This document shows, piece after piece, positions 18,792 to 47,342 of a stretch of 64,000 nt of DNA. Each line of letters starts with the position of its first letter. Position 1 is the first letter of the stretch. The stretch comes from Henckelia pumila (taxonomy: Eukaryota; Streptophyta; Magnoliopsida; Lamiales; Gesneriaceae): contig NC_133122.1 of the NCBI RefSeq assembly GCF_033568475.1, forward strand, positions 16,496,763-16,560,762. Direction: 5' to 3'. A model generated the notes under the pieces. It was not told the DNA's origin. It searched no databases and saw nothing but the letters and a program-made list of their open reading frames with translations. Position numbers and translations under genes: made by a program.

Positions 18792-18796
18792 CCTCG

Positions 18797-20711: not shown

Positions 20712-20745
20712 ATTCTCCCCCTCTTAGAAAAGATTTCGTCCTCGA
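20712..20745 (-). promoter_or_regulatory. Element B polypurine tract region
   Basis: Read on the minus strand, a GAGGACGAAATC motif precedes TAAGAGGGGGAGAAT, which abuts the LTR start TGTAACGCCCC. The GAGGACGAAAT word before the polypurine tract is also seen near the ends of elements A and D and is common in plant Ty3/Gypsy elements. Confidence 0.85.
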
Positions 20746-23374: not shown

Positions 23375-23391
23375 ATCTCCCACTTGCCCTA
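23375..23391 (-). promoter_or_regulatory. Element C polypurine tract
   Basis: The minus strand reads TAGGGCAAGTGGGAGAT directly before the 3' LTR, a typical Copia polypurine tract. Confidence 0.82.
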
Positions 23392-26300
23392 AAGCCAACT
23401 AGTCATACTATGTAATCCCATTGCTTCGCGATGTTTGTCAAACAATGGTCCTGGCAAGGGCTTAGTAAGCGGATCAGCGATATTGTCTGTAGAGGCCACT
23501 CTCTCGACACTGATGTCTCCTCTTTCCACGATCTCCTGGATGATGTGGTATTTCCTCAGTATGTGTTTGGACTTCTGATGAGACCTTGGTTCCTTTGCCT
23601 GAGCAACGGCACCCATGTTTTCACAGTACACCGGGACTGGACCAACATCTTCAGGAATTACACCCAACTCTTGGATGAATTTCCTTATCCAAACCGCCTC
23701 TTTAGCAGCAGCTGATGCTGCAATGTATTATGCCTCAGTGGTGGAATCCGCTGTGGTGTCCTGCTTGGAACTCTTCCAAGAGACAGCACCGCCATTGAGC
23801 ACGAATACAAATCCAGAGGTTGATTTCGAGTCATCCACGTCACATTGGAAGTTAGAGTCGGTATAGCCTTCCAACTTCAATTCTCTCCCTCCATAAACCA
23901 TGAACAAATTCTTAGTCCTTCGCAAGTACTTAAGAATATACTTCACGGCTTTCCAATGCATTTGACCGGGATTGGCTTGGTATCTGCTCGTGACGCTCAG
24001 AGCATAGGCCACATCCGGTCTGGTAGATATCATCCCATACATGATACTACCTATGGCTGATGCATATGGCACGTGTGTCATCTTCTCTATCTCTTCGTCA
24101 GTCTTGGGACACATAGACTTGGATAGAGAAACTCCATGACACATAGGTAGATGTCCTCTCTTGGACTCATCCATAGAAAACCTTTTCAATATGGTGTTGA
24201 TGTAGGTTGATTGAGTGAGTCCTATCATTCTTTTAGATCTATCTCTATAGATCTGAATTCCTAGAATATAGGATGCCTCACCTAAATCCTTCATCGAGAA
24301 TCTACCTGATAACCATATCTTTGTTGACTGCAACATCCCTACATCATTTCCCATGAGTAGGATGTCATCAACATAAAGTACTAAGAATGTTACCGCATTC
24401 TTAACTACTTTTTTGTACACGCATGGTTCCTCCGGGTTCTTGATAAAACCAAAATCCTTTATCGTTTCATCAAATTTCTGGTTCCAACTTCTTGATGCTT
24501 GTTTGAGACCATAGATTGATCTCTGAAGCTTGCATACCTTATGCTCGCTTCCCATGGATGTATATCCCTCAGGCTGCATCATATAGATCTCTTCCTTAAT
24601 GTTTCCATTAAGAAATGCAGTCTTTACATCCATTTGCCATATCTCATAGTCATACCATGCTGCTATGGCAATAAGGATTCTTATGGACTTGAACATTGCG
24701 ACTGGTGAAAAAGTTTCATCATAGTCAACTCCTTATCTTTGAGTATAAACTTTTGCCACCAATCGTGCCTTGTAGGTCAATACCTTTCCATCAGGTCCAA
24801 GCTTTCTCTTGTAGATCCATTTGCACCCAATTGGAACAATTCCAACGGGAGGATCTACTAAAGACCAAACTTGGTTAGAATGCATCGAGTCTATTTCTGA
24901 TTGCATAGCTTCAAGCCATAAATTCGAATCCGCATCAGAAATTGCTTCCTTGAAGTTTTTTGGATCACATCCAATGTCGGGTTCACTTTGATCCCCTTCA
25001 AGAAGAAGACCATATCTAATAGGAGGCCTAGAAGTCCTCTCGGATCTCCTAGTAATAGGCGTGTCTTGTGATGATTCTTGAGGTGTAGGATCACTATTTT
25101 GTATCTCGGGTTCTTCTCGAATTTCTTCGAGTTCCATCATCTTGACTTTCTTATCCAATAAGAACTCCTTCTCTAAGAAGGTGGCATTCCTTGAAACAAA
25201 CACTTTTGTTTCAGCAGGATGATAGAAATAATATCCGATTGAATTCTTCGGATACCCTACAAAATAACATAAAGTGGATCGACTATCCAACTTATCTCCC
25301 ACTGTCTGCTTCACGTAAGCAGGACATCCATAAATCCTCAAGTACGAATACTTAGAGCTTTGCCATTCCATAACTCGTATGGTGTTTTATTTACTGCTTT
25401 AGTGTGGACGTTGTTTAACAACAATACCGCCGTTTCAAATGCGTAGCCCCAAAACGAAGGTGGGAGCTCAGTGAAGCTCATCATGGATCGAACCATGTCC
25501 AACAAAGTTCGATTGCGACGCTCTGAAACACCATTAAGCTGAGGTGTCATAGGAGGAGTCCACTGAGAGAGAATCTCATTCTCTTTTAGATAGTCCAAAA
25601 ACTCGGTACTTAAGTATTCTCCACCTCGATCCGATCGAAGTGCCTTAATACTTTTATCTAGTTTGTTTTCTACTTCAGCCTTGAATTCTTTGAACCTTTC
25701 AAATACTTCAGACTTATATTTCATTAAATATAAATACCCATACCTAGAATGATCATCAGTAAAGGTAATGAAGTAGGTGTTGCCACATTTAGTACCAATC
25801 CTAAATGGACCGCAAACATCTGAATGGATCAAATCCAACAGATTTTGACTACGCTCAGGTTTCCCTTTGAAAGGATATTTAGTCATTTTTCCCTTTAGGC
25901 AGGACTCACAAGTAGGTAGAGAGTTAATATCAGACATATCAAACATGCCCTCTCCCACTAGCTTGTTCATCCTCCTTGAGGAAATATGACCTAGCCTAGC
26001 ATGCCAAAGGTTTGCCGGGTTTTGACTATCGTCCTTCCTTTTAATTGTTGTTACCGGTTTTATCAACATAATTAATTGGAACGTATTTTAATTTTAAGCT
26101 ATATAGATCGTTTTCAAGGTGTCCATTTCCAATCAAACATTCATTCTTGTAAATATTGCAAATCCCATTCACAAAATTGCAAGAAAAACCATCTCTATCA
26201 AGCATAGAAATAGATATAATGTTTTTGACCAAATCCGGAACATATAAAACATCTCTCAAAAATAACTTAAAATTGTTCTGCAAAACTAAATAAATGTCTC

Positions 26301-26685
26301 CTATATCTTTGGCTTCGACTCTAGAACCATTCCCGAGCCTTAGCTGGGTCTCACCCATCCTTAGCTTACAACTTCTTGTCATCATCTGCAAATCATTGCA
26401 AATGTGAGATCCACATCCGGTATCCAATACCCAAGAAGAAGTATTAAGCGAAACATTTATTTCAATGTAAAACATACCCTTTGCAGTTCGCAACTGTTCG
26501 AGGTATTCCTTGCAGTTACGTTTCCAATGACCGGGTTTCTTGCAGTAATGGCAAACATTTTCATCTTTTATCCCAATTGAAGCCTTGGCCTTTTCCTTTC
26601 TTATTTGGTACAATCTTCTTGGGCGGGGCAGAACGTTTCTTACCCTTTTCACTTGGTCCTTTCTTAGAGTTAGAAGATGAGCCAA
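23389..26685 (-). pseudogene. Element C pol: zinc knuckle, protease, integrase, RT and RNase H, broken
   Basis: From right to left the minus strand encodes knuckle CHYCKKPGHWKRNC, protease WVLDTGCGSHIC and the GAG-pre-integrase HARLGHIS...CESCLKGK. Integrase follows (HSDVCGPF, FTDDHSRYGYLY, LRSDRGGEY, NGVSERRNRT), then RT (WIYKRK, QMDVKTAFLNGN, YVDDILLMG) and RNase H (LEGYTDSNF, SWKSSKQ, NIADPLTKPL). Breaks: a frameshift near 26060 between protease and integrase, a TAA near 24732 where a Glu codon is expected (QR-stop-GVDYDETFSP), and a TAA near 23727 in the TEA-stop-YIAAS motif. It is not functional, although each domain is easy to read. Confidence 0.9.
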
Positions 26686-27304
26686 CCAAGAGTACCGGTT
26701 TATCCTTCTTTAGTGTGGCTTCATATGTGACAAGCATATTGACCATCTCTTCAAGGGTGGCCTCTATCTTGTTCATATTGAAGTTCATCACAAAACCGTC
26801 AAACGATGAAGGAAGTGATAGAAGCAACAAGTCCGCGCTAAGTTCATGCTCCAAAGTCAAGTCGAGTGTTACCAACTTTTCAATGAGCCCAATCATGTGC
26901 ACCCCATGCTCACGGACCGAAGTCCCATCTCGCATGCGGCTCGTCATGAGCTCTCTGACGGTGGCATACCTCTCCGATCTTGACTGAGCTCCAAAGAGTT
27001 CCTTGAGGTTCTTGTGAATGTCAGCAGCATTCACGGTATCCTCGAATCTCCTTTGAAGCTCATCAGACATCGAAGCCTGCATGTAGCATTTGGCCTTGAT
27101 ATCATGGTCCCACCATAAATCAAGTTTGGCCAACTCTTCCGGACTTGTATTAGCCGGGGCTTCCTTCGGAGGCGGCTTCTCTAACACGTAAAAAGCTTTT
27201 TCCGAAGTAAGAATAATTTTCAACTTACGGAACCATTTCGTATAGTTTGCGCCAGTCAATTTGTTTTGTTCGAGAATTGAAAAAAGTGGATTGCGAGAAG
27301 TCAT
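26561..27304 (-). pseudogene. Element C gag (UBN2-type capsid protein)
   Basis: The frame starts MTSRNPLFSILEQNKLTG and contains the Copia gag signature NYTKWFRKLKIIL. It also has LWWDHDIKAKCYMQASMS, then LKELFGAQSRSERYATVREL and LLLSLPSSFDGFVMNF. A Lys-rich tail shifts frame near 26600 before the zinc knuckle, so gag and pol are not in one frame although they should be in this group. Confidence 0.88.
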
Positions 27305-28971
27305 TGTAATAGTATACTGAAAAGGAAACAGACAATAATCAATGATTGTTTAATTAATTTACTAAGACATAAAATATGGTGAATTTTAATTTTATGAATT
27401 ACACTCCCACTATTTTAACGATTTCACTACCCTCTAGTGAAAACGGGAAACTGTTTTCCTTAGTGAGAACATGGAGTCCAATTGACAAATCATGATCCCG
27501 AATAATATCAGCCAACCATAATTTTCAAAAGGTAGAGCCCAATTACTTCCAAAGTAACCCCCATGTTTTTACCTCATGTCCAATAAGGGCCCAATAATAT
27601 GACGCCGTTTATTGTGACATGTCAAGATAACCCATCAATATTAAGTTGTGATGGACGGTCGCCATGTGGATCCCCAGTAATATGGCCAATCCCATGGGAG
27701 TTCTACCCAACTTACAACATGTGTCGATCCAATGTACAGCTTTTCGACGAACGGGCCCCCCCAATAATATGAGCCGGACCGTATCCGCGGGTAGCATCTC
27801 ATACATTGATCGTTGATGGAAGGTAGGAATATTTAAACAATATTTAAATTCTCTTTTTATTAATCTTGATATCAATTTTAAATCATATTTAAAATGAGGG
27901 ATTTTTAATTTTTGAAAATTTGTCTCATCATGCAATTTATGTATGCTTGCGGGATTCATACAATTTTGTCTAAACATGCATACATCAATAATATCATATA
28001 TTATTTAAGGATGATCGATCACATTAACTAATCGACCCGTGGTTGCCAATCACGAGTCTAAGTCCAATCCTAGGTGATATGCAAGTATGCAATGCAATCC
28101 TATTACATTGTGCTTCCAATTTACATTTCTTCGGTCTTCATTGTCTGCTGGGCCCACCATTTCTTCAAATCTTTGTCTCCCACTAAGTCTAATAAATTTA
28201 CGCTAAATTTCAATGACAAATATGGGATACATTTTTAGGGGTGGGAACGGGCCATAAACCAGACCCACTTTTATTACATGTGACAATCATATTGGGCTAT
28301 AAACCAAGCCCATTAATAAACACCAACAACAATAAGACAAATTTAAATCACCTAACATACACCTAAAACATTGGTCATGGCAATCGATCATCCTTTATCT
28401 ATTAATTAATTCAATAATTAAATAATTGGATAAACATGCAAAGGCATCATAATTTAAAAGATAAAATCATATTTTATCTTATCCATCCATAAGATCATAT
28501 CTTATCATCAATTGTACCAAAATAATTAATTTTATAAAATTTAATTTAACGGATAAAATTTATAAATTTTCCAAAAATTCAAATTTATCCAAAAATCAAT
28601 TTTAAAATTTTCGGACTCTAACAATTCGATCCGATGCCTCGTGAACCAATCAAAAACAATTTTCGATCGAATCAAAAACTAGAATTTCAAAAATTAAAAT
28701 TTTAATTAAAAATTAAAAAATAATTTTTCCGGGTTGCCCGGGACAATCCTGGGCAGCCCGCTCCCCAAAAAAGGGCCCGGGCTGGGCAGCCCGTCGCTGC
28801 CCCTTGGGCAGCGATCCAATCGGTGCCCTTGGGCAGCGACACTCGCTGCCCGATTTGCCCATTAAAATTTCAATTTTAAATTTTCGTTTTGTTTCAAAAA
28901 CCGAGGCTTAAAAATTTTGTACAATCGATTAATTTAATCATTTGATCTGAGCAACCTGGCTCTGATAACAC
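27305..28971 (-). other. Element C untranslated leader: ~88-bp repeats and a CG-rich structured segment
   Basis: This is the 5' leader between primer-binding site and gag. The word CCCAATAATATGA-like recurs at about 27497, 27589, 27672 and 27759, spaced 84-92 bp, each amid purine/pyrimidine-biased text. At about 28730-28860 a CG-rich block has several GGGCAGC(G/C) words and their complements, able to fold into stems. No convincing coding sequence was found; the 122-codon frame at 27609-27977 is probably chance. Confidence 0.65.
28955..28970 (-). promoter_or_regulatory. Element C primer-binding site
   Basis: The minus strand reads TGTTATCAGAGCCAGG one base past the LTR end. It matches the initiator tRNA-Met complement TGGTATCAGAGCCA with one difference in the first 14 bases. 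Confidence 0.78.
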
Positions 28972-30365
28972 TGTTGGAAAACTGTGTTCAGATCAATTAG
29001 AATTGATACCCGGTGCAGCGAAAGTTTAAAAAATTTATTTTATTAATATGGAACGATTTCATATCTGGGTGGTATCAAAACTTTACGATTAAATTTGTGT
29101 AAGTAAAACAAATAATCACTATTAAATATTTTACCTTGAAATCTCGAAGCGAGATTATGGACACCAACAGAATTTAATCTGCTCTTGTTGTATATCCCAG
29201 GAACTGATGAATGAACGTTTCTTCAATCAGGTCCACGAATAGAAAACAAAACCCTCTGATTGACTGCACTAGAAATCAATCAGAAGTTTGCGTAGAGAAT
29301 AAACAGATATGATCTGTTAATTCAGATTGTAATTTTTCACAAAAATCACAACCCGAATTTTCTCCAAAAGGGACAGAGGATTTCGAAAATCCCTTTGAAT
29401 AATATAGGCTAAAATTCGAAAATTGCAAGACTGAAAATCTTATGTAATTTTCGAACACTTCATTATATTTATAGATAATTTCTAGTTATAATTGTATCAG
29501 TACTCTAACTCCTTAAAGCCCACAATCCATAACTTAAGCCCAACAAGCCAAGCCTGTTGTTATAGAAATTAATATAAAATTCATCGTGACTCCGATTGAT
29601 AAACTGATTTCACCAATGTGCACATAAACCATTTTTGCATCTCTTAGAGTCAAGATAATTTTCCTGAATCCAAATTCAGTGATTTCCAAAAATGTCCATC
29701 CCTATGTCATTTTAGAAAATCTCACTCCCTTTAGTTAAGAAGTCCAACTTCTCTTTCATTAAATTTAACTCTTTAAATTTAACTATCTCTACGGGGTTTT
29801 AGTAATCCATTACTTGTGTAACCCTCAATGGTTCAGGAATACAGCTAGCCGTGGGCTCACAACTCCTTGTGACTCGGAACAACAATTTCCGACTTACCCA
29901 TCGAATCATGGTAAGAGCGCCTAGCAACATCACCCCATGATTCCCTAGGTATTACTGATAGTGCCTGCAAGAACCAGTAGATTTTGGTTAGCATACAGTA
30001 CGGTCCCTTCATCCATATATCCCGATCGAATCAACAACCATTGGTATATCGAGAGTTGTTCGAGATTCGATAACTATGCATAACATCTTGGAGATCTATT
30101 AGTGACATCGCATGTGTTACTAGGAACACCAAGTAACCTAAAACACATCATGTACTCTGGCCAGAGATTCGTCACACTAATATCTCCTCAGATCGCATAG
30201 GATATCCACACTCGCAAGTATGTGGTGAATCCTTGACAACAAAGCATCGACTCCTATATGTGTCGTAACTGTACCCAATCCCGACACCTGATGACTCCAA
30301 TAGAGTCGGTAAATGAGTCAAAGTACAGTACTAACATATAGAGTCTCAATGATGTTTCAAGTAAC
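28972..30365 (-). repeat. Element C right (5') LTR, first part
   Basis: It parallels 21498 to about 22885 nearly base for base (a GG insertion near 29070 is one difference). It stops at GTAAC, where solo LTR E is inserted. Confidence 0.9.
30361..30365. repeat. Left target duplication of solo LTR E (GTAAC)
   Basis: GTAAC precedes E and GTAAT (32240-32244) follows it. The uninterrupted C LTR has GTAAT at the equivalent site near 22887, so the left copy has one transition. Confidence 0.82.
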
Positions 30366-32239
30366 TGTTGGATAACGCGGCTCTCAGATCAATCACGATT
30401 GATACCCGGTGCAGCGGAAGTTTAAAAATTTTATTATGGAACAATTCCATAGTGTAGGTATCAACCGTTTAACGATTAAATTATTTGTGTGTGTAAAATT
30501 AAATAACTATTATTAAATTTTACCTTCAATCTCGAAGCGAGATTATTGGACACCACACAGATTTCTCTGCGCTTCTTGTATCTCCCTGGAACTGATGAAC
30601 AAGCTTTCTGTCCTTCAATCAGGTCCACGAATGGAGGTTTAATCCCTCTGATAGATTGCACTAGAAAATCTATCAGAAGTTTTCTACGAAGAGAATAAAC
30701 GAATTTGATTCGCTATTCCAGACTGCAATTCAAAATCACAGACCGGAATTTCTCACGCAGAGAAGGGAGGGGGGCGGCCGAATTTCTTTTGAGAGAGAGC
30801 TAGGGTTTTCGATTTTCTGTCTCTCAAATTATGACCAGTTGTGTGTAATTTCTGTACTGTAATAACTTATTTATAATGCAGGCCACTAACACCTTAGGGC
30901 CCATTAGTCATAAGTTGAGGCCCGACAAGCAAAGCCCGCATGTTCAGAAATTAATATAAAATTCATCGTGACTCCGATTGATAAACCGATTTTACCAATG
31001 TGCACAGAAACCATTTCTGCACATTTTAAAGTCAAGATAAATTTTCCTGAATCCGAATTCAGTGGTTTCCAAAAATGTACATCCCTATGTCATTTTAGGA
31101 AATCCTACTCCCTTACTCTTATTTAAGAAGTCCAACTTCTTTATTCATTAAATTTAACTCTTTAAATTTAACTATCTCAACGGGGATTAAAACTCCATTA
31201 CACTGTGTGACCCTCAATGGTTCAGGGATACAGCTAGCCGTGGGCTCACAACTCCTTGTGACTCGGAACAACGATTTCCGACTTGCCCAACGAATCATGG
31301 TAAAGCGCCTAGCAACATCGCCCCATGATTCCCTAGGTATCACTGATAGTGCCTACAAGAACCAGTAGATTTTGGTTCGCGTACAGTACGGTCCCTTCAT
31401 CCATATATCCCGATCGAATCAACAACCATTGGTATATCGAGAGTCGCTCAAGATTCGATAACTATGCAATACATCTTGAAGATCAAATTAGTGACATCGC
31501 ATGTGCTACTAAGAAACCATTTCTTAAATCACATCAAGTACTCTGGCCAGAGATTCGTCACACTAATATCTCCTCAGATCGCATAGGATATCCACACTCG
31601 CAAGTATGTGGTGAATCCTTGACAACAATGCATCGGCTCCTATATGTGTTGTAACTGTACCCAATCCCGACACCTGATGACCCCCATAGAGTCGGTAAAC
31701 GAGTCAAAGCACAGTACTAGCATATAGAGTCTCCATGATGTTTCAAGTAGTAAGGACTAATGGTGTACAACCAAAACCGCGGACTTTATCCACTCGATAA
31801 GTGATAACCACTTGGAAAGTCCGGATAGGGTAGTTCGATTATTCATCCTATGAATATCCATTTGCATGCTTCGAACATCTCCATGTTCCCTACCAATGAA
31901 ACGTGGTACTCCGCATCGCAAATGCTAGTCTCAAACTCGAGCGATCCTTATCCTTATTCTCGGACGGCTCAATCGACTAGGAACAGTTTAGAATATACAG
32001 TGACTATAAGATGTATTTCATGATAGACATCCCCATGTTCTACCACATCTTACATACACTATAGTATATTCAAGGTCTTTATCAAAACAACAATAGTATA
32101 TCACAATATAACAATATGAAGAAAGATAAAGTCATTGCCATTAATAAAAGTGTAAATTACATTAAACAAAAGATCGTTTGTACAAAGAGTCATCAAAGCC
32201 CATAGCCACAAGTTGGCTCACTGGGCACCCACTCTTTCA
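30366..32239 (-). mobile_element. Solo LTR E of a related Copia family, inside element C's 5' LTR
   Basis: It starts TGTTGGATAACGC and ends CACCCACTCTTTCA, with the same overall plan as C's LTR but many substitutions and small indels. It is therefore a sister family or an older subfamily. There is no internal region and 5-bp duplications flank it, so it arose by LTR-LTR recombination of a full element. Minus orientation is inferred from its resemblance to C's LTR. Confidence 0.88.
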
Positions 32240-32244
32240 GTAAT

Positions 32245-32730
32245 AAGGACTAATGATGTACAACCAAAACCGCGGACTTTATCCACTCGATAAGTGATAA
32301 CCACTTGGAAAGTCCGAATAGGGTAGTTCGATCATTCATCATATGAATATCCATTTGCATGCTTTGAACATCTCTATGTTCCATACCAATGAAACGTGGT
32401 ACTCGGCATCACAAATGCTAGTCTCAATCTCGAGCGATCCTTATCCTTATTTGCGGATGGCTCAATTGACTAGGAACAGTTTAGAATATACAGTGACTAT
32501 AAGATGTGTTTCATGATAGCCATCCCCATGTGCTACCACATCTTACATACACTATATTATATTCAAGGTATTTATCAAAACAACAATAGTATATCATAAT
32601 ATAACAATATGAAGAAAGATAAAGTCAATGCCATTATAAAAGTGTAAATTATATTAAACAAAAGATTGTTTTACATAGAGTCATAAAAGCCCTTAGCCAC
32701 AAGTTGGCTAACCGGGCACCCACTCTTTCA
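32245..32730 (-). repeat. Element C right (5') LTR, remainder
   Basis: It continues the C LTR exactly where E interrupted it, matching about 22890-23374 and ending CACCCACTCTTTCA. Element B sequence resumes at 32731. Confidence 0.9.
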
Positions 32731-33227: not shown

Positions 33228-34031
33228 CTACTGAGGTTGAAAAGAGTGGACAGTAGGAGCTTGTTGCTGAGGCTGAGCTGTCTGTCTCGAAAAACTTCCA
33301 CTCTGAACTTGCTCAGGGACACGCTGAGGGCACGCTCTGGCAAAGTGCCCCGCCTGGTTACAGATATAGCAGCTTCCAAAAAATACCTCTACACTGATCA
33401 CTGGAGTGACGACCTCCGCAGTTGGCACAAGACATGCCTGACTGACCCGAACTCTGTCCCGATCCAAACTGTCTCGAGCCACTAGAGCTCGAAGAACTGG
33501 TTCCATGCTTCTTAAACTGCTTCCCCTTCGGGAGATAGTAATCCTTCCTATTACTTCCACTGCTACCACCCTCAGAACTCGGTGGTTGGTTCTGAAACTG
33601 AAATGATTGATTATGGTAATGGAATGGTTGGTCCTGATATTGAGAAGATTGTGCCTGAAACTGTCCTTGCTGCTGCTGAGGCACAAACTGATTTTCTCTC
33701 TGTCTCCACAAACCTGCTTCAGCTCCTTTTGCATGATTCATGGCATCCGCAAAATTATCTGGCCTAGCAGTGTTTACCAACGTGAAGATATCAGGGTTCA
33801 GACCATTAATGAACTGATCAGATTTTGCTTCTTCGTTGTCGGCAATGTGCGGTGCAAATCTCAGCAAACTATCAAACTTGGCCACATACTCCTCAATATT
33901 CAAATTTCCTTGTTTTAGATTTGCAAATTCGGCTCCCTTGTCCTTTCGGTACGAAACTGGGAAAAACCGTTTATAAAACTCAGACTTAAACAGATTCCAG
34001 TTAATAGTTGTACCTCGGTTCTCCATGGACC
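33228..34031 (-). pseudogene. Element B gag, C-terminal part (after element D)
   Basis: The minus-strand frame carries the second half of a Ty3 retrotransposon gag domain (NWNLFKSEFYKRFFP, FANLKQGNLNIEEYVAKF, QFINGLNPDI). It continues with a Gln/Ser-rich linker and CANCGGRHSSDQC. A frameshift near 33380 separates this from the knuckle CYICNQAGHFARAC, followed by a stop at 33228. Its N-terminal part lies at 41326-41630, beyond element D. Confidence 0.87.
34028..34031. repeat. Left target duplication of element D (GACC)
   Basis: GACC precedes D's 5' LTR and recurs at 41326-41329 after its 3' LTR. Removing D with one copy keeps B's gag in frame, so the boundary is precise. Four bases rather than five is slightly unusual. 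Confidence 0.8.
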
Positions 34032-34180
34032 TGTAGTAGCCCGTGCCCTAATTGAGTAATTAAAGGATTAATGCTAATTAATTCAATTAGGCATCGGACG
34101 GATCGGAAGCTCCGAAGGGACGATCGGAAGCTCCGATCGGGATCGGAAGCTCCGATGAGGATCGGAGGCACCGATGATAT

Positions 34181-34197
34181 TACGTCATCCATGACGT
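34181..34197 (+). promoter_or_regulatory. Inverted TGACG (as-1-like) pair in D's U3
   Basis: TACGTCA and TGACGT face each other across four bases. TGACG motifs bind TGA-type bZIP factors that respond to salicylate and oxidative stress. Function here is inferred from the motif only. Confidence 0.5.
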
Positions 34198-34270
34198 GTG
34201 GTTGGATCGGAAGCTCCGATCAGGACCGGAGGCTCCGATCACCCCTATCTGGAGTCAACAAGTGATATTT

Positions 34271-34281
34271 TGACACGTGGC
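34271..34281 (+). promoter_or_regulatory. G-box / ABRE-like site in D's U3
   Basis: TGACACGTGGC contains the CACGTG core (34274-34279) in an ABRE-type context, in the largest gap of the palindrome array. bZIP or bHLH factors could bind it; this is motif evidence only. Confidence 0.5.
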
Positions 34282-34375
34282 AGATCAGGATCTTCGGAAG
34301 CTCCGATGGCAGGATCGGACGTTCCGATCCAGGTTCGGACGTTCCGATCGAGGATCAGAGGCTCCGATCGTTGTC

Positions 34376-34383
34376 TATAAATA
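34376..34383 (+). promoter_or_regulatory. TATA box of element D's LTR promoter
   Basis: TATAAATA follows the palindrome array and precedes the presumed transcription start about 30 bases downstream, near 34405-34415. The same box is at 40331-40338 in the 3' LTR. Confidence 0.75.
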
Positions 34384-35374
34384 GAAGGCCGAGACTTCAT
34401 TTCTCCTTGCCAATCCCGGATTTCCTCCCTATTTCTAGTCATATTCGAGCTGTTCTAGTCTTTCTTAAGCTTGGTCCGGAGGTCGGAGAGGCGTTCGGTA
34501 GTCGTAGCAGAGTTGTGCCCAAGTTCTGGAGGCATCGACATCAAAGGGCTAACGACGGACGAAGGTATAGCTTTTGCTTCCTATAAATATTTAGGAGTAT
34601 GCAATAGCTTAGTTAAGGCTTTTAGAGCACTTTAATGATAGTAGTATCATTTGGCAGTGTAGAGCAGACTATAGGCGTGGACCTAGAGTTGGTAGAGCTT
34701 GCACTGTTTTGAGGTACGAAAGTACTGTTCGAGATATCCTGACTGAGTATGCATGTATTATATGACTGCATGAGTTATATGCCATGATATTATGCTGCAT
34801 TCATTTGCATCTTGCTGTATCTCTTTCGAGATGTCTGTAGTAGGGTTGTACCCTATCCTGTTAGTGGATGGACTTCCATCGATTTGGGTCCGGCGTATCC
34901 ACAGTTATCTCGGTATGGGAGCCACCTCCTGAAGCGACGGCACAGCGTGCTACATACCAGGGCCCGGTCTGTCTCTGTTATCTGATCCTTGACCTCGAGT
35001 CTATAGGGAGTTCACTTTGCATGCATGTATACTCATACTCTCGCACTGAGCGTTTTATGCTCACGTCTCGTACTCTGTATTTTCTGGACACCCTATTCCA
35101 TGGGGCAGGTTTGCGATTGGACGAGGAGGGTGGATCCAGGAGGGGCTAGTCAGTGGTTGGCCAGCTGGAGCTTCGTCTAGGCTTTATTACTGTTGTTTGG
35201 GTTTATACAGCTATTCGATTTGGTTGTATATTATTGGATAATTACAGATTCCTTTTCTTGGGATTGTATAATGTTATTGGTTTCCGCAGTTTTATTCTGA
35301 TATCTGTTTTATTAAGTTAATTGCATGCATAAGTTCTGTTTAGTAGGTGATCCGGGTATGGGTCACTACATTTA

Positions 35375-35386
35375 TGGTATCAGAGC
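35375..35386 (+). promoter_or_regulatory. Element D primer-binding site
   Basis: TGGTATCAGAGC, four bases past the LTR end, is complementary to initiator tRNA-Met. Confidence 0.9.
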
Positions 35387-35435: not shown

Positions 35436-38400
35436 ATGTCAAATCGTGACGACCAGAGTTCTCATGGCAGTGTTGGTGGGCGTTGGGGTGATGCCGACCG
35501 GGAGCCTCGTCGAGAACGGCGTCATCGACACCATGACGACGAGCGTTTTACTGTGCGTCGATTCTTAGCTATGGGTCCTAAGCCCTTAGTTGGAGGTGGG
35601 TCTCCGGAGGATGCGGAGAACTGGTTAGACCGCATGGAGACGACTTTTCAGACTTTCCAATGCACCGATGAGCAGAAGGTGGAGACCCTTGGCTATCTTC
35701 TGGATGGGCGTGCGCGCAGGTGGTGGAGGTTTACTTCTGCACCTTTTGTTGCGGCAAGAGGAGTGGCCACCTGGGCCGAGTTTCGCACAGCTTTCCAAAA
35801 GCGGTATTTTCCTCCTGCACTCCGACAGTCGAAGGCAGGCGAGCTACTGAGTCTGCGACAGGGAACCATGTCTATCGATGAGTATCAGCAGAGGTTCTTT
35901 GATCTGCTATCCTACTGCCCCGAGATTGCTGATAGCTCAGAGATGAAGTATAATCTGTTCCTTCAGGGCCTTAACCCTGAGATCCATGACCGTGTGGCGG
36001 TTGGTGACGACATGTCCTACGAGGGTTTGGTGAGCCGTTGTCACCAGGCGGAGGACAGCATTCGGCGGAACAGGTCTTTCTCTCAGTCGAGACCTGCTAG
36101 TTCTTTGGCCCCCCGTGCCCAGTCATTCAAGAAGTCCGGGTCTACTTCTTCCTCTGGTTCTGGAGGTATTGTCCGTTTCGGTAAGAAGGACAAGTGTGAT
36201 CACTGTGGGAAGAACCATCCATCCGAAAAGTGCCGTAGAGCTTCTGGAGCTTGTTTCCGTTGTGGAGAGACTGGTCATATCCGGAGGGATTGTCCACTGT
36301 CTGGGGGAGGTGGTTCTGGTTCTGGTTCAGGATCGGGTTCTCAGGCTACCGTTCAGCAGAGGTCGCAGGGACAGTCTGCTGGGAGTTCTCATTTGAGGCC
36401 ACGAGCTTCTGGCCAGGTGTTTGCCCTGAGACATGATCAGGCTGTGGAGGAGAATGAGAAAGTCATCGCAGGTACATTTATGCTTTATGGTATACCTGCT
36501 CTTGTACTTATTGACACTGGTGCATCTCATTCCTTCATTTCTGCACGTTTTGTTAAGAGGCATAAGTTACCATGCATTGCACTAGACGTATTGATGTCTG
36601 TTTCTACTCCGACGGGCCAATCTGCTTTGGCTAAGCGTCTAGTGATGGGTTGCCCTTTAGAGTTCGAAGGGAACGTTCTGTTAGCGAATCTCATGGTCCT
36701 GGCGATGGACGACTTTGATTGCATTCTGGGAATAGATGTGCTGACTACCTATCGAGCTTCAGTGGACTGCTATCAGAGATTAGTACGCTTTCATCCGGAA
36801 GGGAGTGAGAGTTGGTTTTTCTATGGTGAGGGAGCGCGACCCCCGATGCCTTTGGTATCAGCTTTGAGAGCCTGTCGAGCTCTAGAGTCTGGCGGGGAAG
36901 GCTACCTTATCTATGCAGTTGATTTGTCCGCTGAGAGTATTGGGATAGAGAGCATTCCTGTTGTGGATGAATTTCCAGATGTGTTTCCTGATGAGATTCC
37001 GGGTTTTCCTCCTGCTAGGGAAGTCGAGTTTGGCATAGAGTTGATGCCAGGTACTTCGCCTATTTCTAGAGCACCGTATCGTCTGGCTCCGTCAGAGATG
37101 CGTGAGTTGAAGAATCAGCTACAAGATCTTTTGGACAAGGGGTACATTCGTCCTAGTGTATCTCCTTGGGGAGCTCCTGTTCTCTTCGTAAAGAAGAAGG
37201 ATGGGTCGATGCGGCTGTGCATTGACTATCGGCAGCTGAATCGAGTGACTGTGAAGAACAAGTATCCGTTGCCTCGCATTGATGACTTGTTTGACCAGCT
37301 GCAGGGCACATCAATTTACTCCAAGATTGACTTGAGATCTAGGTATCATCAGTTGAGAGTCCGTGATCAGGACGTAGCCAAGACTGCATTCCGTACTCGC
37401 TATGGGCATTATGAGTTCCTAGTGATGCCATTTGGTTTGACCAATGCGCCGGCTATATTCATGGATCTGATGAACCGTGTCTTCAGGGAGTATTTGGACA
37501 AGTTTGTCGTGGTCTTCATTGACGACATCTTGGTGTATTCGCGTAATACGGAAGAGCATGTTTCTCACTTGCGATTGGTACTACAGACTCTTCGAGATGA
37601 GCAATTGTACGCCAAGCTGAGCAAGTGTGAGTTCTGGATGGATAGAGTGGTTTTTCTTGGCCATATCATATCCAGAGAGGGGATTTCTGTTGATCCAAGC
37701 AAGATTGAAGCGGTACTTAATTGGTCGCGTCCGACGACAGTTGCTGAGATCCGTAGTTTTCTGGGTCTAGCAGGGTATTATCGTCGCTTCATTCTGAACT
37801 TCTCTCAGTTAGCTCGACCGTTGACGCAGCTTACCCGCAAGGGTGTGGATTTTGAGTGGTCCTCCGAGTGTGAGGAGAATTTCCGTGAGCTTCGACGGCG
37901 GTTGACTTCTGCGCCGGTGTTAGCATTACCGTCAGGATCTGGAGGGTATGTAGTTTACACGGATGCTTCTCTTCAGGGGTTAGGTTGTGTCCTGACTCAG
38001 AATGGGCATGTGATCGCATACGCTTCTAGACAGCTGAAGCTTCACGAGGACAACTACCCAGTCCATGATTTGGAGTTAGCAGCCATTGTGTTCGCTTTGA
38101 AGATCTGGCGTCATTATCTGTATGGCGAGAAATTTGAGATCTTCACCGACCATAAGAGTCTCAAGTATTTGTTCACTCAGGCAGAATTGAACATGAGACA
38201 GAGACGTTGGATGGACTTGCTTAAGGACTATGATTGCGAGATTAAGTACCATCCGGGAGCTGCTAATCGCACCGCTGATGCCTTGAGTCGCAAGGTGCGA
38301 CTATCCGCACTTCAGACTTGTTCGATGTCTAGTGCGATTAGTGACTGTTGTACTTCAGGTTATACCTTCAAGCATAAGAAAGGTATGCAGAGTATCCAGA

Positions 38401-39851
38401 TGTTTGCGATATTATCTGAGCCAGCCTTGTACTCGCGGATCCGAGATGCTCAGATGTCTGATTCAAAGACCCAGCGTTTAGCTCGTCTAGCTAACGAGGG
38501 TAGCTCATCTGGATTTCATTATCAGTCAGACGGCTTTCTGTGTTTGTCTGGTAGGCTTGTGATTCCACAGGATGAAGAGTTGCGAGAGGAGATTTTATCT
38601 CAGGCACATCGCACTAAGTTGAGTATTCATCCTGGGAGCAACAAGATGTACAAGGATCTACGTACTCGTTTCTGGTGGAAGGGAATGAAACGCAGTGTTT
38701 ATCAGTTTGTTTCGAGATGTTTGGTGTGTCAACAGGTCAAGGCAGAGCACCGACGACCTGGAGGATTGCTTCACAGTCTGCCTATTCCTGAATGGAAATG
38801 GGAGTTTATCACTATGGACTTTGTGACCCATTTGCCGGTATCCCCGAGGAACTGTGATGCTATCTGGGTTGTGGTGGACCGACTCACCAAGTCAGCGCAT
38901 TTCATTGCCTATAGCCGAGAGTACTCTGTGGATCGCATGGCACGGATGTACATTCAGGAGATCGTTCGACTTCATGGAGTGCCTGTGAGCATTGTCAGCG
39001 ATCGGGACCCCAGGTTTACTTCTAGATTCTGGGGGAGTGTTCAGCGTGCGATGGGTACTACTCTCAGTTTGAGTACAGCCTATCATCCAGAGACTGATGG
39101 TCAGTCAGAGCGCACTATCCGTACGTTAGAAGATATGCTAAGAGCATGCGTCATGGATTTTGGTTCAGCCTGGCAGGATCATTTGCCGTTGATCGAGTTC
39201 GCTTACAACAACAGCTATCACACTAGTATTGGGATGGCACCTTTTGAGGCGTTGTATGGGCGACGTTGTCGTACTCCACTCTTCTGGGAAGAAGTGGGGG
39301 AGAGACAGGCTGAGGGACCGGAGTTTATCCAGCAGGCGATAGATATTGTTGATCAGATCAAGAAACGGATTAAGACTGCACAGGATCGTCAGGCCAGCTA
39401 TGCTAATATCAAGCGTAGACCTTTGCAGTTCGAGGTCGGGGAGAAAGTGTTTCTGAGAGTGTCACCTTTCCGCAAGATTCTCAGATTTGGCCTTAAGGGC
39501 AAGTTGTCTCCCAGATTTATCGGTCCGTTTGAGATCTTAGAGAGCATTGGCGATTTGGCTTATCGACTAGCTTTGCCACCGCATCTATCCAGCATTCACG
39601 ACGTGTTCCACGTATCTCTGTTGCGACGGTATGTGGCGGATGAATCTCATATTCTGCAGCGGTCTGAGGTTCAGGTAGACAAGGATTTGACTTATGTTGA
39701 GAAACCTCTTCGCATCCTTGATTATAAGGATAAGGTTTTACGGAACAAAGTCATTCCTTTGGTTTTAGTTCAGTGGCAGCGCCGAGGCACTGAGGAAGCT
39801 ACTTGGGAGCTTGAGGACAGGATGCGTAAAGACCATCCTGAGTTGTTTTGA
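35436..39851 (+). CDS. Element D gag-pol polyprotein, 1471 codons, uninterrupted
   Basis: Gag comes first (retrotrans_gag region about residues 70-170), with knuckle [14 protein letters not shown] from C273. Protease [12 protein letters not shown] has catalytic D360. Reverse transcriptase carries [13 protein letters not shown] and FIDDILVYS, with D696-D697. RNase [14 protein letters not shown] has D843. Integrase has an HHCC finger starting near H1058 and a D,D35E core: D1128, then the first Asp of SDRDPRF, then Glu of SERTI, 35 residues apart. RFIGPFEIL and a chromodomain-like end ([19 protein letters not shown]) finish it. Gag and pol share one frame, so the polyprotein is presumably cut by its own protease. 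One oddity: residue 636 in the RT motif DLRSGYHQL is Arg (AGG) instead of the usual Gly, which could impair activity. The start is the first ATG after a 65-base leader. Confidence 0.95.
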
Positions 39852-39973: not shown

Positions 39974-39986
39974 AAGTGGGGGAGAA
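39974..39986 (+). promoter_or_regulatory. Element D polypurine tract
   Basis: AAGTGGGGGAGAA abuts the 3' LTR and follows a GAGGACGAAAT motif, as in elements A and B. Confidence 0.88.
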
Positions 39987-41325
39987 TGTAGTAGCCCGTG
40001 CCCTAATTGAGTAATTAAAGGATTAATGCTAATTAATTCAATTAGGCATCGGACGGATCGGAAGCTCCGAAGGGACGATCGGAAGCTCCGATCGGGATCG
40101 GAAGCTCCGATGAGGATCGAAGGCACCGATGATATTACGTCATCCATGACGTGTGGTTGGATCGGAAGCTCCGATCAGGACCGGAGGCTCCGATCACCCC
40201 TATCTGGAGTCAACAAGTGATATTTTGACACGTGGCAGATCAGGATCTTCGGAAGCTCCGATGGCAGGATCGGACGTTCCGATCCAGGTTCGGACGTTCC
40301 GATCGAGGATCAGAGGCTCCGATCGTTGTCTATAAATAGAAGGCCGAGACTTCATTTCTCCTTGCCAATTCCGGATTTCCTCCCTATTTCTAGTCATATT
40401 CGAGCTGTTCTAGTCTTTCTTAAGCTTGGTCCGGAGGTCGGAGAGGCGTTCGGTAGTCGTAGCGGAGTTGTGCCCAAGTTCTGGAGGCATCGACATCAAA
40501 GGGCTAACGACGGACGAAGGTATAGCTTTTGCTTCCTATAAATATTTAGGAGTATGCAATAGCTTAGTTAAGGCTTTTAGAGCACTTTAATGATAGTAGT
40601 ATCATTTGGCAGTGTAGAGCAGACTATAGGCGTGGACCTAGAGTTGGTAGAGCTTGCACTGTTTTGAGGTACGAAAGTACTGTTCGAGATATCCTGACTG
40701 AGTATGCATGTATTATATGACTGCATGAGTTATATGCCATGATATTATGCTGCATTCATTTGCATCTTGCTGTATCTCCTTCGAGATGTCTGTAGTAGGG
40801 TTGTACCCTATCCTGTTAGTGGATGGACTTCCATCGATTTGGGTCCGGCGTATCCACAGTTATCTCGGTATGGGAGCCACCTCCTGAAGCGACGGCACAG
40901 CGTGCTACATACCAGGGCCCGGTCTGTCTCTGTTATCTGATCCTTGACCTCGAGTCTATAGGGAGTTCACTTTGCATGCATGTATACTCATACTCTCGCA
41001 CTGAGCGTTTTATGCTCACGTCTCGTACTCTGTATTTTCTGGACACCCTATTCCATGGGGCAGGTTTGCGATTGGACGAGGAGGGTGGATCCAGGAGGGG
41101 CTAGTCAGTGGTTGGCCAGCTGGAGCTTCGTCTAGGCTTTATTACTGTTGTTTGGGTTTATACAGCTATTCGATTTGGTTGTATATTATTGGATAATTAC
41201 AGATTCCTTTTCTTGGGATTGTATAATGTTATTGGTTTCCGCAGTTTTATTCTGATATCTGTTTTATTAAGTTAATTGCATGCATAAGTTCTGTTTAGTA
41301 GGTGATCCGGGTAAGGGTCACTACA
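39987..41325 (+). repeat. Element D 3' LTR
   Basis: It has the same 1339-bp length as the 5' LTR. The differences seen are at about 40110 (G/A), 40370 (C/T), 40462 (A/G), 40779 (T/C) and 41315 (T/A), the first base of each pair being the 5' LTR base. One falls in the fourth unit of the palindrome array. Confidence 0.94.
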
Positions 41326-41934: not shown

Positions 41935-43879
41935 TGTGAGACCTCGTTTCTAAACAACTAATGACATAATTTTATTTTTATTTTTGTAAAAAGACGTTCG
42001 CGCGCCCGCGGTGAAGTCAGCGCGCCCGCGCCGACACCTCGCCAAAACCAGCGCGCCCGCGCCCTAACCTCGCCAAGAGTTAGCGCGCCCGCACCAACAT
42101 CCGCGCGCTCGCGCCTTTCTCTCGCCCATAAATCCAAGGGACCGAAAAGAAATCCAACCAAACCTAAACATTTGCATTTAAAGTATCTGACAAGCCAATA
42201 ACAATACAAGAAAAGTTTAGGAAAGAAAAACATTTGATTCGGTAGTACCTACATCGATTCTTGCTTACAATACAAAACGAGAAGTTCGAATGACAAAACA
42301 TGTTCGCAAAACATAAACTAGATTGACATGCTGATTCGACTTCTAAACGAGTCTCACTTCTATCTCTTGCTCTTGACGTTAACCAGGTCTATTCTGACTC
42401 GGTCCTGCCCCACATGTTGCCAAGTACACATACAAACAAAGACAACAGCCGGATAATCCGGTGAGAATACAATCCCCAGTAAAAGAGACAAACATGCATA
42501 TCAATTAATATATCAACACATGATATATATACAAGACAATCAATTCCAAATTCATATCTAAACTCAATTCAAATGCATACAGTGCAATGCATGTCTTTAA
42601 AATCTGGGATTATCAAGTCGGATAATCAAAAGAGTTGCTGCTTTTGCTTTTGGGGATCCCGAGGATGAGATCACGTAAAAAACTCACCGACTCTCCCGAT
42701 CGAGGTGGTGCTACGTATCTCCATCCTCTAGACTTTGGTGCGACTATAAGGAGTATGCTAGCACTAGGTGAAACGGCTACACCCAGGCCACTCACAATAT
42801 AATCCCCAAAACGTCTATCATAAAAGGGTCGTCCTGCCCGCTGCTCAAATCAAGGATTCTTAGCTCAATATGAATGAAATGCAAAACGTAACTCAAATAA
42901 CTTAAATAATCAAATAACATGCAAGTATGTGATTTTTTTGGAACACTCAAATCAAGTCGGATTCGAGTCACACGTTCCATTCCAGTCTAAGTCATTTTAT
43001 ACCTCTTTCAAACGTCGATGCTCCAACCTGGAAACAACAACAATTCCTCAATCAAGATCAATCAAACTTCCTCAGTCGATAATAAGAAATCAATACTATA
43101 CCGGCTACAATCTTCAAAGCGATACAACTCTTGCAATCTCGCAACTCAACGGCCTTCAAACGAATCTGTCAAAAGAAGTAATAAAGGCTCGAGATCAAAA
43201 TACAACTCAATCAAAGACTTGGCTCAAACACTACAAACCGATTGACAATCCAAAACTCAAACCGGCGGCATAACGGCTGTATTCTGATCAAACCGAAAAT
43301 GCAGACAACATAATATCAATCCAAACAACTCTTATCAATCAATATTCAACCATAAAAATCCAATTCCAACAAATCATAAAAACTCAACTTTCGAAAATCC
43401 CTTCAAAATTCATAACAAATCCGAACGACGCTCTATTTCGAAACCGACAGAGAATAAACGATCAGAACTCTGCCAAGAACAACATACTAGCAACTCAATC
43501 TATTCTAACGACATCCCAAAAATAGAACGAATCTGATTGGAGAAATACTTACGATAGAACGAATCTCTCACAGCCGTGATCGCTAATCTGCCTTCAGAAA
43601 TAAATTCCAACGGACGTATCGAGCTCGGGGAGAAATCTGGAAGCTCAAGAACACGTTGGGGAGTCTTCAATGGGGGAGGAGGCATGTAGGGAAGAAGGTG
43701 AAGTGAAGAGGAAGGCCAACACTTGCTTAAATATCTATTTAAGTCCAAAATTGCATTTTAGTCTCTAAAAAATTTGAAATTTGCAAAAAGGACCCTGATC
43801 AAAATCAAGTCGGATCTTGAACTCTGGAATCTCAGATTATCTCAAATAAAATCAATTAAGATAAAATCGGGGCGTTACA
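41935..43879 (-). repeat. Element B right (5') LTR
   Basis: The intact 1945-bp LTR begins TGTGAGACCTCG and ends GGGGCGTTACA on the plus strand. It is followed at 43880 by GTTTA, an exact copy of the duplication at 9404. Confidence 0.92.
42000..42125 (-). repeat. GCGCGCCCGCG repeat block in B's right LTR (five units)
   Basis: GCGCGCCCGCG-like words start at 42000, 42020, 42051, 42083 and 42113, spaced 20-32 bp and separated by CCTCGCCAA-type linkers. The left LTR has one unit fewer. It lies in U5 on the element strand, hence in the RNA leader. Confidence 0.78.
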
Positions 43880-43990
43880 GTTTACCAGCAGAAAAATCCT
43901 ACAGATTAAGAAGAGTTATAAGTCTGGGTGTCCCCCTCCAAAAGAACCAAAACATAAATAAATTTTCACACATTGAGAACAATTTTTTTT
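43880..43990 (+). mobile_element. Right target duplication of B (43880-43884) and 3' tail of the LINE
   Basis: GTTTA matches the left duplication. The LINE RNase H reading frame interrupted at 9408 continues here briefly (SRKILQIKK) before a stop near 43960. The exact LINE end was not determined; a T-rich tract lies near 43982-43993. Confidence 0.65.
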
Positions 43991-44663: not shown

Positions 44664-46914
44664 CTGTAGACAAATGGACAAATGTGAAGTTAAAATGGCA
44701 AAAGTCTTGGGCATATCTCTTCAAATCTAGGATGACAATTTTTCCAGTTCCCACCTCTCGGAATTGCTTTCTCATGGCGAAATTCTACTACGGAATCCGA
44801 TTTCAACCGTTTTTGGTTTTTGGAGGTACTTTGTAGCTTAAGATTTTTCTAGATATTTTGTTCTTTGTGAATCGGATTTTCCGAATCTTGTTGATTTTCA
44901 AAAAAATGCAACGAATCCTTCTATCGATGATTCTGGGCGTACGTTGCAATTGCTCTTGATTTTTGGAGGTACATTGCAATTGCTCTTAATTTCCTTTTTT
45001 TCTTCTTCTAATAACGCTAATTTTTGTTGAAAAAAAATTGATTTCGCTAAGTTCGATTGAAAAATAGAAGTCTATTTTTCTAGTTTCCAGAAAATTCGGA
45101 AAGGGAGACAGATTGGAGGAGAGACTAACTTAACAAATTTGAGCTTAAGCTTCATGGTAAACATATATGTTTTTTTTAATCTGATAGGATTAATTGGCTT
45201 CAAATTGATAAATTTGATCTAAACTTGGCTCTTTTGTGTTTTGTTTTTTGATGTTATTCGTTGGAGATTTCAAGGTTATTCCAATTAATTGGCTTCAAAC
45301 TTGATAAACCGAAACTCAGGGAAGTTTGGCTTTTGATACAAAAGTCAGACTCGTGAGTTGGAAGGAGGTGGCTTTTTTCTGTTTTACATGAAGTGTGATT
45401 AATTTGTTTAAACTTGTTATTCAAGGTTCAAGAAATTATGTCCATTGGTTATTTAGTAGTGTCACTTTCCAGATTACGTGTGTATGAGTTTTGGTTTAAG
45501 TTTTATTATTGAATATAATGTTAGTTTGAGATCTTCAAGATTCTTAAACAACACTAGCCTAAATTTTTTAATAAATTTCCTGTCTTTTGTCACTGCATGC
45601 TTGGAAGTAATCTATGAATAATTAATTAGTAAATTTAATTATCTAATGGAATAACTTTGTTATAGATATTGCCTCATAAATGCGTTCATTCTGCCAATTA
45701 TTGCCTGATAAATGCGTTTCAGTATGAGTTCTATCAAGTAATGATTGCTTTTTGGATGAACGTCTTTCTAGTATTGTGAGTTTTTTTTTGGGTTGTGTTT
45801 GAGTTCTATGAAGGTGTCGATGGAGAGAAGCAAGAGTTTTGTGACTGCATTACAGGTGATTCTCTTGCAACTGTCATAATAACTGTTTATACTCTTATTA
45901 TATTTGAGTTTTTGGCTAGAAACATTGGATCAGATATGGGAATAGATTAGTATATGATTGTGAAGATTTGTCTTGACTCTATTTTGACTTCATTTTTGTC
46001 TTTTTTGCTTCTTAGTGGACAGAAGGACAGAAAATTCGAGTAATAGTTCTAGAACTGGATTTGACGTTGAGATATATAAATTACCTTGGTTGAGTTCCAT
46101 TAGGTTCGATTTTTAGGTCCCTGTATAGAACGTGAGTGATTATTTTTGTACAAAATTGCATGTCAGTGATGGAAAATCTGGAGTTATGCAATTTGGGAAG
46201 TTTGTACAGTTCTATATCGTGTTAGTTTATTTAGGTGATGATTTTGTTCAATTCTTTTTGGACAATACGATTTTATTTGATTTCGGTGATAACAGTAGTG
46301 TTTTTTTATGATACTGGCTTTCTGTGTTTTTTATGCTCATGCATGGTTTCTATTCATCGCAATTTTCACAACTCTATATTTTCAGCCTCCATAAACAGAT
46401 GCAAAAACAACGGTGGCAAAATTTAACATGTGTTATGCAAAGTATGATGAGTGGAGCTGTCGAAAGATCACGTGGACTCATTCTTTACCTGCAAAGGTAA
46501 AATGAAGAATTTAAATTTAACAAATGAGTTATTAAAAATTACTTGTAAAAGTACATAATGATTTAAAATCCAATTTATTTTTCTAGATGGATGCGAAGAT
46601 GACAGATATTATACAACAATACATGTCAAATGCTTTGGAAAGTATTCGTGGACATCTATCACCATCGAATCAAAAGAGTATTATTAGAGAGAGCTTTAAA
46701 GGAATTTATGAATACTTTTGTTTATTGGTAACATTACAAACGATTAATGTGTTATTTCGTATTTGGTTTTTAAGGATTATATTTTGATTTATGGAATGAA
46801 AATATGGATGTTTTAGCTGTTTTATTTATTTGTTGTTGAATCGATGCAGTTTGTGAACGAAAACTTAAAATTTGACTATCAAACATAGGACATTAGAACT
46901 CATTAAAATAAGGA
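44664..46914. other. AT-rich region with possible exon-like fragments, not identified
   Basis: A plus-strand stretch at 46436-46496 (YAKYDEWSCRKITWTHSLPAK in one frame) is followed by GTAAAA. A frame starting near 46587 (MDAKMTDIIQQYMSNALES...) follows TTTTCTAG, which looks like a spliced junction. I recognise neither. They lie left of a CACTA transposon end and may be transposon-borne or captured exons. The rest is low-complexity AT-rich DNA. Confidence 0.35.
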
Positions 46915-47311
46915 TTTAAGAGCGGTTGCAAATCGCTTCTACATAAACTCATTTAGTGCGGTTATTACAACCGCTCCCAGACATTGCTTTTAAAGCGGTT
47001 GATAAACCGATTTAATTACGCATTTACAAGAGCGGTTGTAAACCGCTCTTACAGAGCTCTTCAAAAGCGGTCTTTAAACCGCTCTAATATTATATTTTAT
47101 TCAAGCGTTTAACAACCGCTCTTAAAACCAATATTTTAGGGCGGTTTTTATATATTTACCAACGCCTGTTATACCCGATCGAATTGATCCTACCATTGTC
47201 AACACAAAGAGCGTTTGTCAAACCGGTGTAAATAATTCTAAAGCGGTCTAAAACCGCTCTTAAAGGATTATATAACCGCTGTTATATCATTTTTTTTTTT
47301 TTTTTGTAGTG
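46915..47311 (+). mobile_element. CACTA (En/Spm) transposon terminus with AGCGGTT subterminal repeats
   Basis: The words AGAGCGGTTG, ACCGCTC and AAGCGGT recur at least a dozen times in both orientations. The region ends in a T-run and TTTGTAGTG at 47311, the complement of the CACTACAAAAA terminus. TAA (47312-47314) may be the 3-bp duplication. Dense subterminal repeats of this kind bind the TNPA-type protein in En/Spm elements. The opposite end was not found in the window. Confidence 0.75.
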
Positions 47312-47342
47312 TAAGAGACCAATCTACAAATAGTAAAAAGTA

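Follow-up and report, generated by a model that had tools for sequence, protein, structure and literature searches.

The 64,000-nucleotide stretch of Henckelia pumila DNA analysed here, referred to throughout as the window, contains a retrotransposon (element D) whose long terminal repeats (LTRs) carry, shortly upstream of the TATA box, an array of ten 15-bp near-palindromes. This raises the question of what such an array might do for the element that bears it. We consider the most likely mechanism, with a probability of roughly 0.6, to be that of a dimer-bound enhancer in U3, in which the array serves the LTR promoter as its upstream activating region. The switch that turns on plant retrotransposons in native tissue is known for few elements only, and the array offers, for a group of elements that is very abundant, a sharp, testable site with a defined half-site, spacer and distance to the TATA box.

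The ten units of the 5' LTR follow the pattern ATCGGA-NNN-TCCGAT and lie at 34102-34368. An earlier note, made from the letters of this DNA, had described ten units of this consensus, and the count was confirmed: four match ATCGGANNNTCCGAT exactly, six carry a single mismatch, and the same ten units recur in the 3' LTR, one of them with an extra mismatch. Successive units start 21, 19, 19, 45, 19, 68, 21, 20 and 20 bp apart, i.e. a head-to-tail repeat with a period of 19-21 bp within clusters and steps of 45 and 68 bp between them (Table 1). The two-turn repeat described earlier is thus real within clusters, although the range then given, 19-22 bp, is slightly wider than that measured; similarly, the last unit is indeed close to TATAAATA, but the exact gap between its end (34368) and the start of that box (34376) is 7 bp rather than about 8. 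The proposal that the units present on one DNA face applies inside a cluster and not across clusters, since neither 45 nor 68 bp amounts to a whole number of helical turns, which puts the full array out of phase. A chance origin is ruled out by 2000 dinucleotide shuffles of U3, in which units with no more than one mismatch averaged 0.0125 and never exceeded 2, compared with the 10 observed, and by the genome count against a reversed control presented below. The array, 267 bp in length with a GC content of 0.56, has a CpG observed/expected ratio of 1.30, that of the remaining LTR being 0.73. Between its clusters lie further sites with ACGT cores, of which we take TTACGTCA and ATGACGTG to be bZIP-like (as-1-like) and CACGTGGC to be G-box-like.

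Table 1. Coordinates of element D and of the promoter features in its LTRs.
Feature	Position in window	Strand	Basis and remarks
5' LTR of element D (TGTAGTAG...CACTACA), 1339 bp	34032..35370	+	LTR pair alignment; U3 taken as ending at about 34387
Palindrome cluster 1	34102..34175	+	units at 34102, 34123, 34142, 34161
TTACGTCA and ATGACGTG, each with an ACGT core, lying between cluster 1 and cluster 2	34180..34198	+	sequence; ACGT cores also in related arrays
Palindrome cluster 2	34206..34239	+	units at 34206, 34225
CACGTGGC, between clusters 2 and 3	34274..34281	+	sequence; listing of ACGT cores
Palindrome cluster 3	34293..34368	+	units at 34293, 34314, 34334, 34354
TATA box TATAAATA	34376..34383	+	22 bp from start of last unit; offset equal in 40/40 LTR copies
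Primer-binding site region (TTTATGGTATCAGAGC)	35371..35386	+	sequence
Uninterrupted 1471-aa frame	35436..39851	+	gag, protease, RT, RNaseH and integrase (Pfam), with chromodomain match
Polypurine tract adjoining 3' LTR	39974..39986	+	sequence
3' LTR with second array copy (40057-40323)	39987..41325	+	LTR pair alignment

Element D had been called young, and this description holds, since its LTRs differ at just five of 1339 positions; with an assumed rate of 1.3e-8 per site per year, their age is about 0.14 million years. The element is flanked by GACC on both sides, and its primer-binding site, TTTATGGTATCAGAGC, is presumably of the initiator-Met type. Within the long frame RT and RNaseH precede integrase, and a C-terminal match to Chromo (E 5.4e-5) scores 23.5 bits, slightly below the curated Pfam cut-off of 25.1. 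Because of this domain order and this match, and because the relevant part of a survey of plant LTR-retrotransposons reports chromodomains from chromoviruses and from no other group (PMC6317226), element D is taken as a Ty3/gypsy chromovirus. Its placement in the Del/Tekay clade is likely, although the clade name is a guess, D matching these elements in the integrase-linked chromodomain of a Ty3/gypsy polyprotein, with the Pfam domains and the marginal Chromo score as given above. The list of open reading frames holds no second frame of at least 200 aa in D, and no unit with up to two mismatches, nor any further internal copy, was found between its LTRs. By its insertion, D disrupts the gag frame of an element on the minus strand, and a gag-like frame at 33358-34026 stops at this point. 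The host of the insertion is probably an older minus-strand element with LTRs at 18786-20714 and 41936-43882, which are 96.4% identical.

The palindrome is a mass feature of this genome. In the 884.7-Mb assembly the exact motif has 66,940 matches, while the reversed pattern, employed as a control, has 7. Exact units followed by TATAAATA within 30 bp were found at 6,488 places on one strand and 5,779 on the other (control 0 and 0), and exact unit pairs no more than 30 bp apart at 17,768 places (control 0). A genome scan for the motif at 19-22-bp spacing and for its enrichment in LTRs had been suggested earlier, and the counts against these controls make its outcome strongly positive. Among the first 100 motif-TATA places listed, 68 have a gap of 7 bp between unit and box, 14 have one of 19 bp, 17 have one of 26-29 bp and a single place has 9 bp; to judge from the listed letters, the 26-29 bp class mostly represents the last-but-one unit, followed by a final unit that is exact or mutated. 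Start-to-start spacings in the 76 distinct pairs among those listed are 19 (11 pairs), 20 (20), 21 (13), 38 (1), 40 (27) and 45 bp (4), in a search which by design cannot show spacings above 45 bp. Of the first 100 exact matches listed, 39 were read in context, and all 39 lie inside arrays; 30 of these are the loci L037-L066, comprising nine clusters each viewed through one or two loci, and nine fall inside L105-L111. All but two of the other 61 have another exact match within 300 bp, the remaining two lying about 6.2 kb from an array that was read.

Variation within LTR copies was assessed quantitatively in 40 LTRs, 38 of them picked by a query from the downstream part of the LTR, not by the array, and two being those of the window. 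The downstream search scored 40 of 1,533 candidates, two of which were the window's own, and a search with the array 40 of 1,857. A low array diversity seen in the first 22 LTRs was discounted, since 20 of these had been picked among the 40 matches that the array search gave. In the 40 LTRs the mean minor-allele frequency is 0.0104 in half-sites (120 columns), 0.0505 in spacers (30 columns) and 0.0409 in linkers (117 columns), so that half-site columns are some 4-5 times less variable than spacer or linker columns. The difference between half-sites and linkers has a rank-test p of 0.0005, a rough figure, as are all such values here, because LTRs of one element and its close relatives are not independent. 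For comparison, the LTR downstream of the TATA box yields 0.0202 (983 columns) in the same copies, a difference from half-sites that is not significant (p 0.18). None of 266 circular shifts of the half-site mask gave a value as low as that observed, although the lowest, 0.0108, came near it; when the unit mask was placed at random, 4 of 10,000 trials did as well. Within the spacer, the constraint on the central base is as strong as that on the arms, at 0.0078 compared with 0.079 and 0.065 for its two neighbours.

The arrangement of the units in these copies is regular, apart from the gain and loss of whole units. Counting units with up to three mismatches, there are ten in 34 LTRs, nine in four, eight in one and eleven in one, the eleventh being an overlap with three mismatches. 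All units lie upstream of the TATA box in all 40 copies, and the last unit starts 22 bp before TATAAATA in every one, including the five with only eight or nine units, in which units have been lost whole while the TATA offset stays. The distance from TCGGA to TCCGA in the 38 loci chosen by downstream sequence is 3 bp in 285 cases, with not one case of 0-2 or of 4-11 bp; there are nine cases of 12 bp and three of 17 bp, and distances of 22-24 bp are those between array neighbours. In the window the corresponding counts are 15 for 3 bp and three for 9 bp, and in 37 partly overlapping loci of contig C1 they are 205 for 3 bp and four for 8 bp.

Arrays of several divergent families were compared in 14 loci, one being that of the window and the other 13 coming from the initial 1.07 Mb of contig C1, each read in one orientation (that with the TATA word after the array, where present) for units with no more than two core mismatches and no more than 130 bp from another unit. 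This gave 136 units, 82 of them distinct, in which the half-sites and the 3-bp spacer are kept. For some of these loci, the LTR can be aligned to that of element D in patches only, with an identity of 69-87%. Identity of polyprotein frames to that of D is 93% for L042, 80% for L057 (the partner LTR of L053), 77% for L047 and L109, 58% for L108 (gag) and 49% for L106; frames in the fetched stretches of L037, L105, L110 and L111 showed no match to the D polyprotein. At any of these loci the frame may belong to another element than the array. The consensus of the 136 units is WTCGGA-NGN-TCCGAW (WTCGGANGNTCCGAW). As 121 of them have G at the centre when read on the promoter strand, the unit is not a pure dyad and the near-palindrome has a direction. 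The fixed spacer of the earlier note, written there as NNN, is nearly always 3 bp long in the fetched loci but is not fully free, its centre being mostly G.

In 11 of the 14 loci a TATA-like word follows the start of the last unit at 22 bp and in two (L053 and L109) at 34 bp, and in one locus no TATA word was found. L053 and L109, counted as one family, resemble each other in the layout of the array and in the letters of the promoter, and the gap of 19 bp in the 14 listed motif-TATA places fits their offset of 34. ACGT cores occur in 12 of the 14 loci, some of them inside or straddling units, and none was found in the array region of L053 or L109. Of the 122 spacings in these loci, 87 measure 18-22 bp. 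With a turn of 10.5 bp, the mean phase of the 33 spacings longer than 25 bp comes to about half a turn (R 0.39), and presentation of the whole array in phase on one DNA face was consequently rejected, the idea failing between clusters.

The array appears to be a selectively kept part of the promoter. Conserved letters in the halves, a 3-bp spacer and a preferred distance to the TATA box together point to a dimeric DNA-binding protein acting at the core promoter. Each WTCGGA-NGN-TCCGAW unit would be a candidate site for a host-encoded dimeric protein, with each monomer reading one TCGGA half-site and the 3-bp spacer setting the geometry of the dimer. Repetition about every two helical turns could then place several dimers side by side, the last of them staying 22 bp away from the core promoter, as measured from unit start to TATA box, where, together with the nearby ACGT-core, bZIP-like sites, it would raise transcription of the retrotransposon. 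Dimer binding and activation, as opposed to repression, are what we infer from these features, and the factor is presumed to be encoded by the host because element D has no second frame of at least 200 aa. The suggestion of a dimer-binding array in an LTR promoter thus gains support from half-site constraint, spacer, one-sided changes (see below) and a largely fixed TATA distance.

As to the identity of the factor, our leading candidate, at the level of a guess, is a protein of the LOB/LBD family. LOB/LBD proteins have CGG-type targets. The guess leans on these targets and on a passage of one paper, according to which a LOB-domain dimer discriminates palindromic DNA (PMC10118128). A literature search for an LBD motif returned nothing useful, and searches with the motif strings matched only in a paper which, by its title, concerns human OTUD6B. 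The earlier note knew of no plant factor with this exact site, and the literature searched likewise named none for it, although the motif itself has a precedent in the CGG-CCG palindromes of Sireviruses, as far as the consulted part of their description goes (PMC2829016).

The best-surviving alternative, which we nevertheless hold to be unlikely, is that the same sites recruit, in place of an activator, a repressor, an insulator protein, a chromatin factor or a factor which counters silencing by keeping a CpG-rich promoter unmethylated. The CpG enrichment of the array fits such a role, the sequence evidence would suit a repressor equally well, and CpG islands in Del LTRs elsewhere are discussed, in the portion of the study drawn upon, in terms of escape from silencing (PMC4029996). 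Against this, a silencer kept in thousands of successful copies should bring the element no direct gain, and the preferred TATA distance would suit action at the core promoter; neither argument is decisive.

A clearly less probable reading takes the palindromes as nucleic-acid hairpins, the stem-loops of 3' U3 RNA either serving the element or feeding small-RNA silencing by the host. Array RNA does fold better than its shuffles (z -4.63, with 0 of 200 as good), as palindromes are expected to do, and a hairpin role has been proposed for maize Sireviruses, over whose palindrome clusters an excess of small RNAs is described in the part of the report used here (PMC10760457). However, positions 2-6 of the 82 distinct units contain 69 one-sided changes, 15 of which leave a G-U pair, and no compensated pair; the sole double change there, at position 6, is unpaired. 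Compensation is confined to the outermost pair, where A-T becomes T-A in 23 units. The unit filter would have admitted one compensated pair. Pairing as the main constraint was rejected on this ground, and the constraint on letters and on TATA distance is likewise unlike what pairing alone would predict. It appears that the letters of each half are kept rather than their pairing, and small RNAs could be a by-product of the array. Least probable is a neutral tandem repeat spread by slippage and family amplification, for although the units follow one another head-to-tail at a period of 19-21 bp, differ in number among the 40 LTRs (8-11) and mostly share the central G, half-sites are depleted of variation relative to spacer and linker inside the very same repeat, and arrays persist in loci whose LTRs match D only in patches.

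The array may be set against known systems, the closest being the repeated motifs of Sireviruses, which are Ty1/copia elements. In the part of Bousios et al. (2010; PMC2829016) on which this comparison draws, Sirevirus LTRs are described as carrying 3-14 palindromic motifs in the 3' LTR, with at least eight per element, a CGG-CCG core in 12 of 13 tabulated elements, and a position upstream of the TATA box where they often define CpG islands. A role in regulation was put forward there untested, and the motif was regarded as specific to Sireviruses in comparison with 'classic' elements, that set also being Ty1/copia (PMC2829016). Our array is similar in its palindromic unit with a CGG-CCG core (WTCGGANGNTCCGAW, from 136 units of 14 loci), in having several LTR copies upstream of the TATA box (ten in D, 8-11 in 40 of 40 LTRs) and in a cluster that is CpG-island-like, as judged by its length of 267 bp, GC of 0.56 and ratio of 1.30 and not by CpGplot; the Sirevirus Usier motif GTCGGACGTCCGAC is near to the array unit in its letters (PMC2829016). 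It differs from what is given there in having five bases between CGG and CCG and a Ty3/gypsy carrier, and, while env-bearing Sireviruses have further copies upstream of the env-like gene, element D has neither internal units nor a second frame of at least 200 aa (PMC2829016). A palindrome shared by maize Copia elements, CACCGGACNNNGTCCGGTG, and linked to small RNAs (Bousios et al. 2016, as reported in the accessible part of PMC10760457) likewise has CGGA...TCCG arms around a short centre and is clustered in the LTR cis-region, but has longer arms with an extra inner base pair, a copia carrier and the character of a small-RNA or structure feature. The carrier of the present array fails the defining feature of Sireviruses because it is Ty3/gypsy. 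The array closely resembles a type already known from Ty1/copia Sireviruses, the Ty3/gypsy carrier setting it apart.

Enhancer repeats of the Tnt1 type, which are mentioned in PMC3601003, are not known to be CGG-CCG palindromes. They resemble the present case in that tobacco retrotransposons of this type have U3 tandem repeats tied to transcriptional control. LORE1 of Lotus is, like D, a chromovirus, and its LTR cis-elements drive tissue-specific transcription in LTR::GUS fusions; the term palindrom- is absent from the main text of that paper, in so far as this was accessible (PMC2832683). Del/Tekay elements also share a chromovirus LTR with D, and some of their groups have a CpG-rich, length-variable 5' stretch; CpG islands are given for the Del LTRs of many grass groups and for none of the eudicots studied, and neither palindrom-, 'tandem repeat' nor CCG occurs in the main text as available (PMC4029996). 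No report of a CGG-CCG palindrome array in Ty3/gypsy LTRs was found in the literature searched, of which few subscription papers were within reach.

The likeness to the motifs of Sireviruses suggests convergence of unrelated superfamilies on a single host factor. A broader and more tentative idea, which we would rate as possible though improbable, is that CGG-CCG arrays at a set TATA distance constitute a shared promoter code, adopted independently by Ty1/copia Sireviruses and Ty3/gypsy chromoviruses since one conserved family of dimeric plant transcription factors reads both; the tens of thousands of sites in this genome, so far seen only as LTR-type arrays, would then be a large sink for the factor unless methylated. 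If convergence on one host factor is true, these LTRs would be ready-made, co-regulated promoters scattered over the genome.

Other elements in the window provide further context. A chromovirus-like element with LTRs at 9421-11156 and 16992-18791 has no CGG-CCG palindrome with arms of at least 5 bp and a CGG-to-CCG gap of 0-8; its pol is 54-69% identical to that of D, in pieces, its LTRs are 94.4% identical to each other and its coding region is split into several frames. A minus-strand element at 21498-32730, copia-like by eye (frames at 23728-27304), includes several partly duplicated stretches that are 82-98% identical. Finally, the stretch at 46910-47320 resembles, on inspection by eye, a transposon end, presumably of the CACTA type, with the reverse of CACTACAAAAA near 47310 and subterminal AGCGGT...ACCGCT palindromic repeats.
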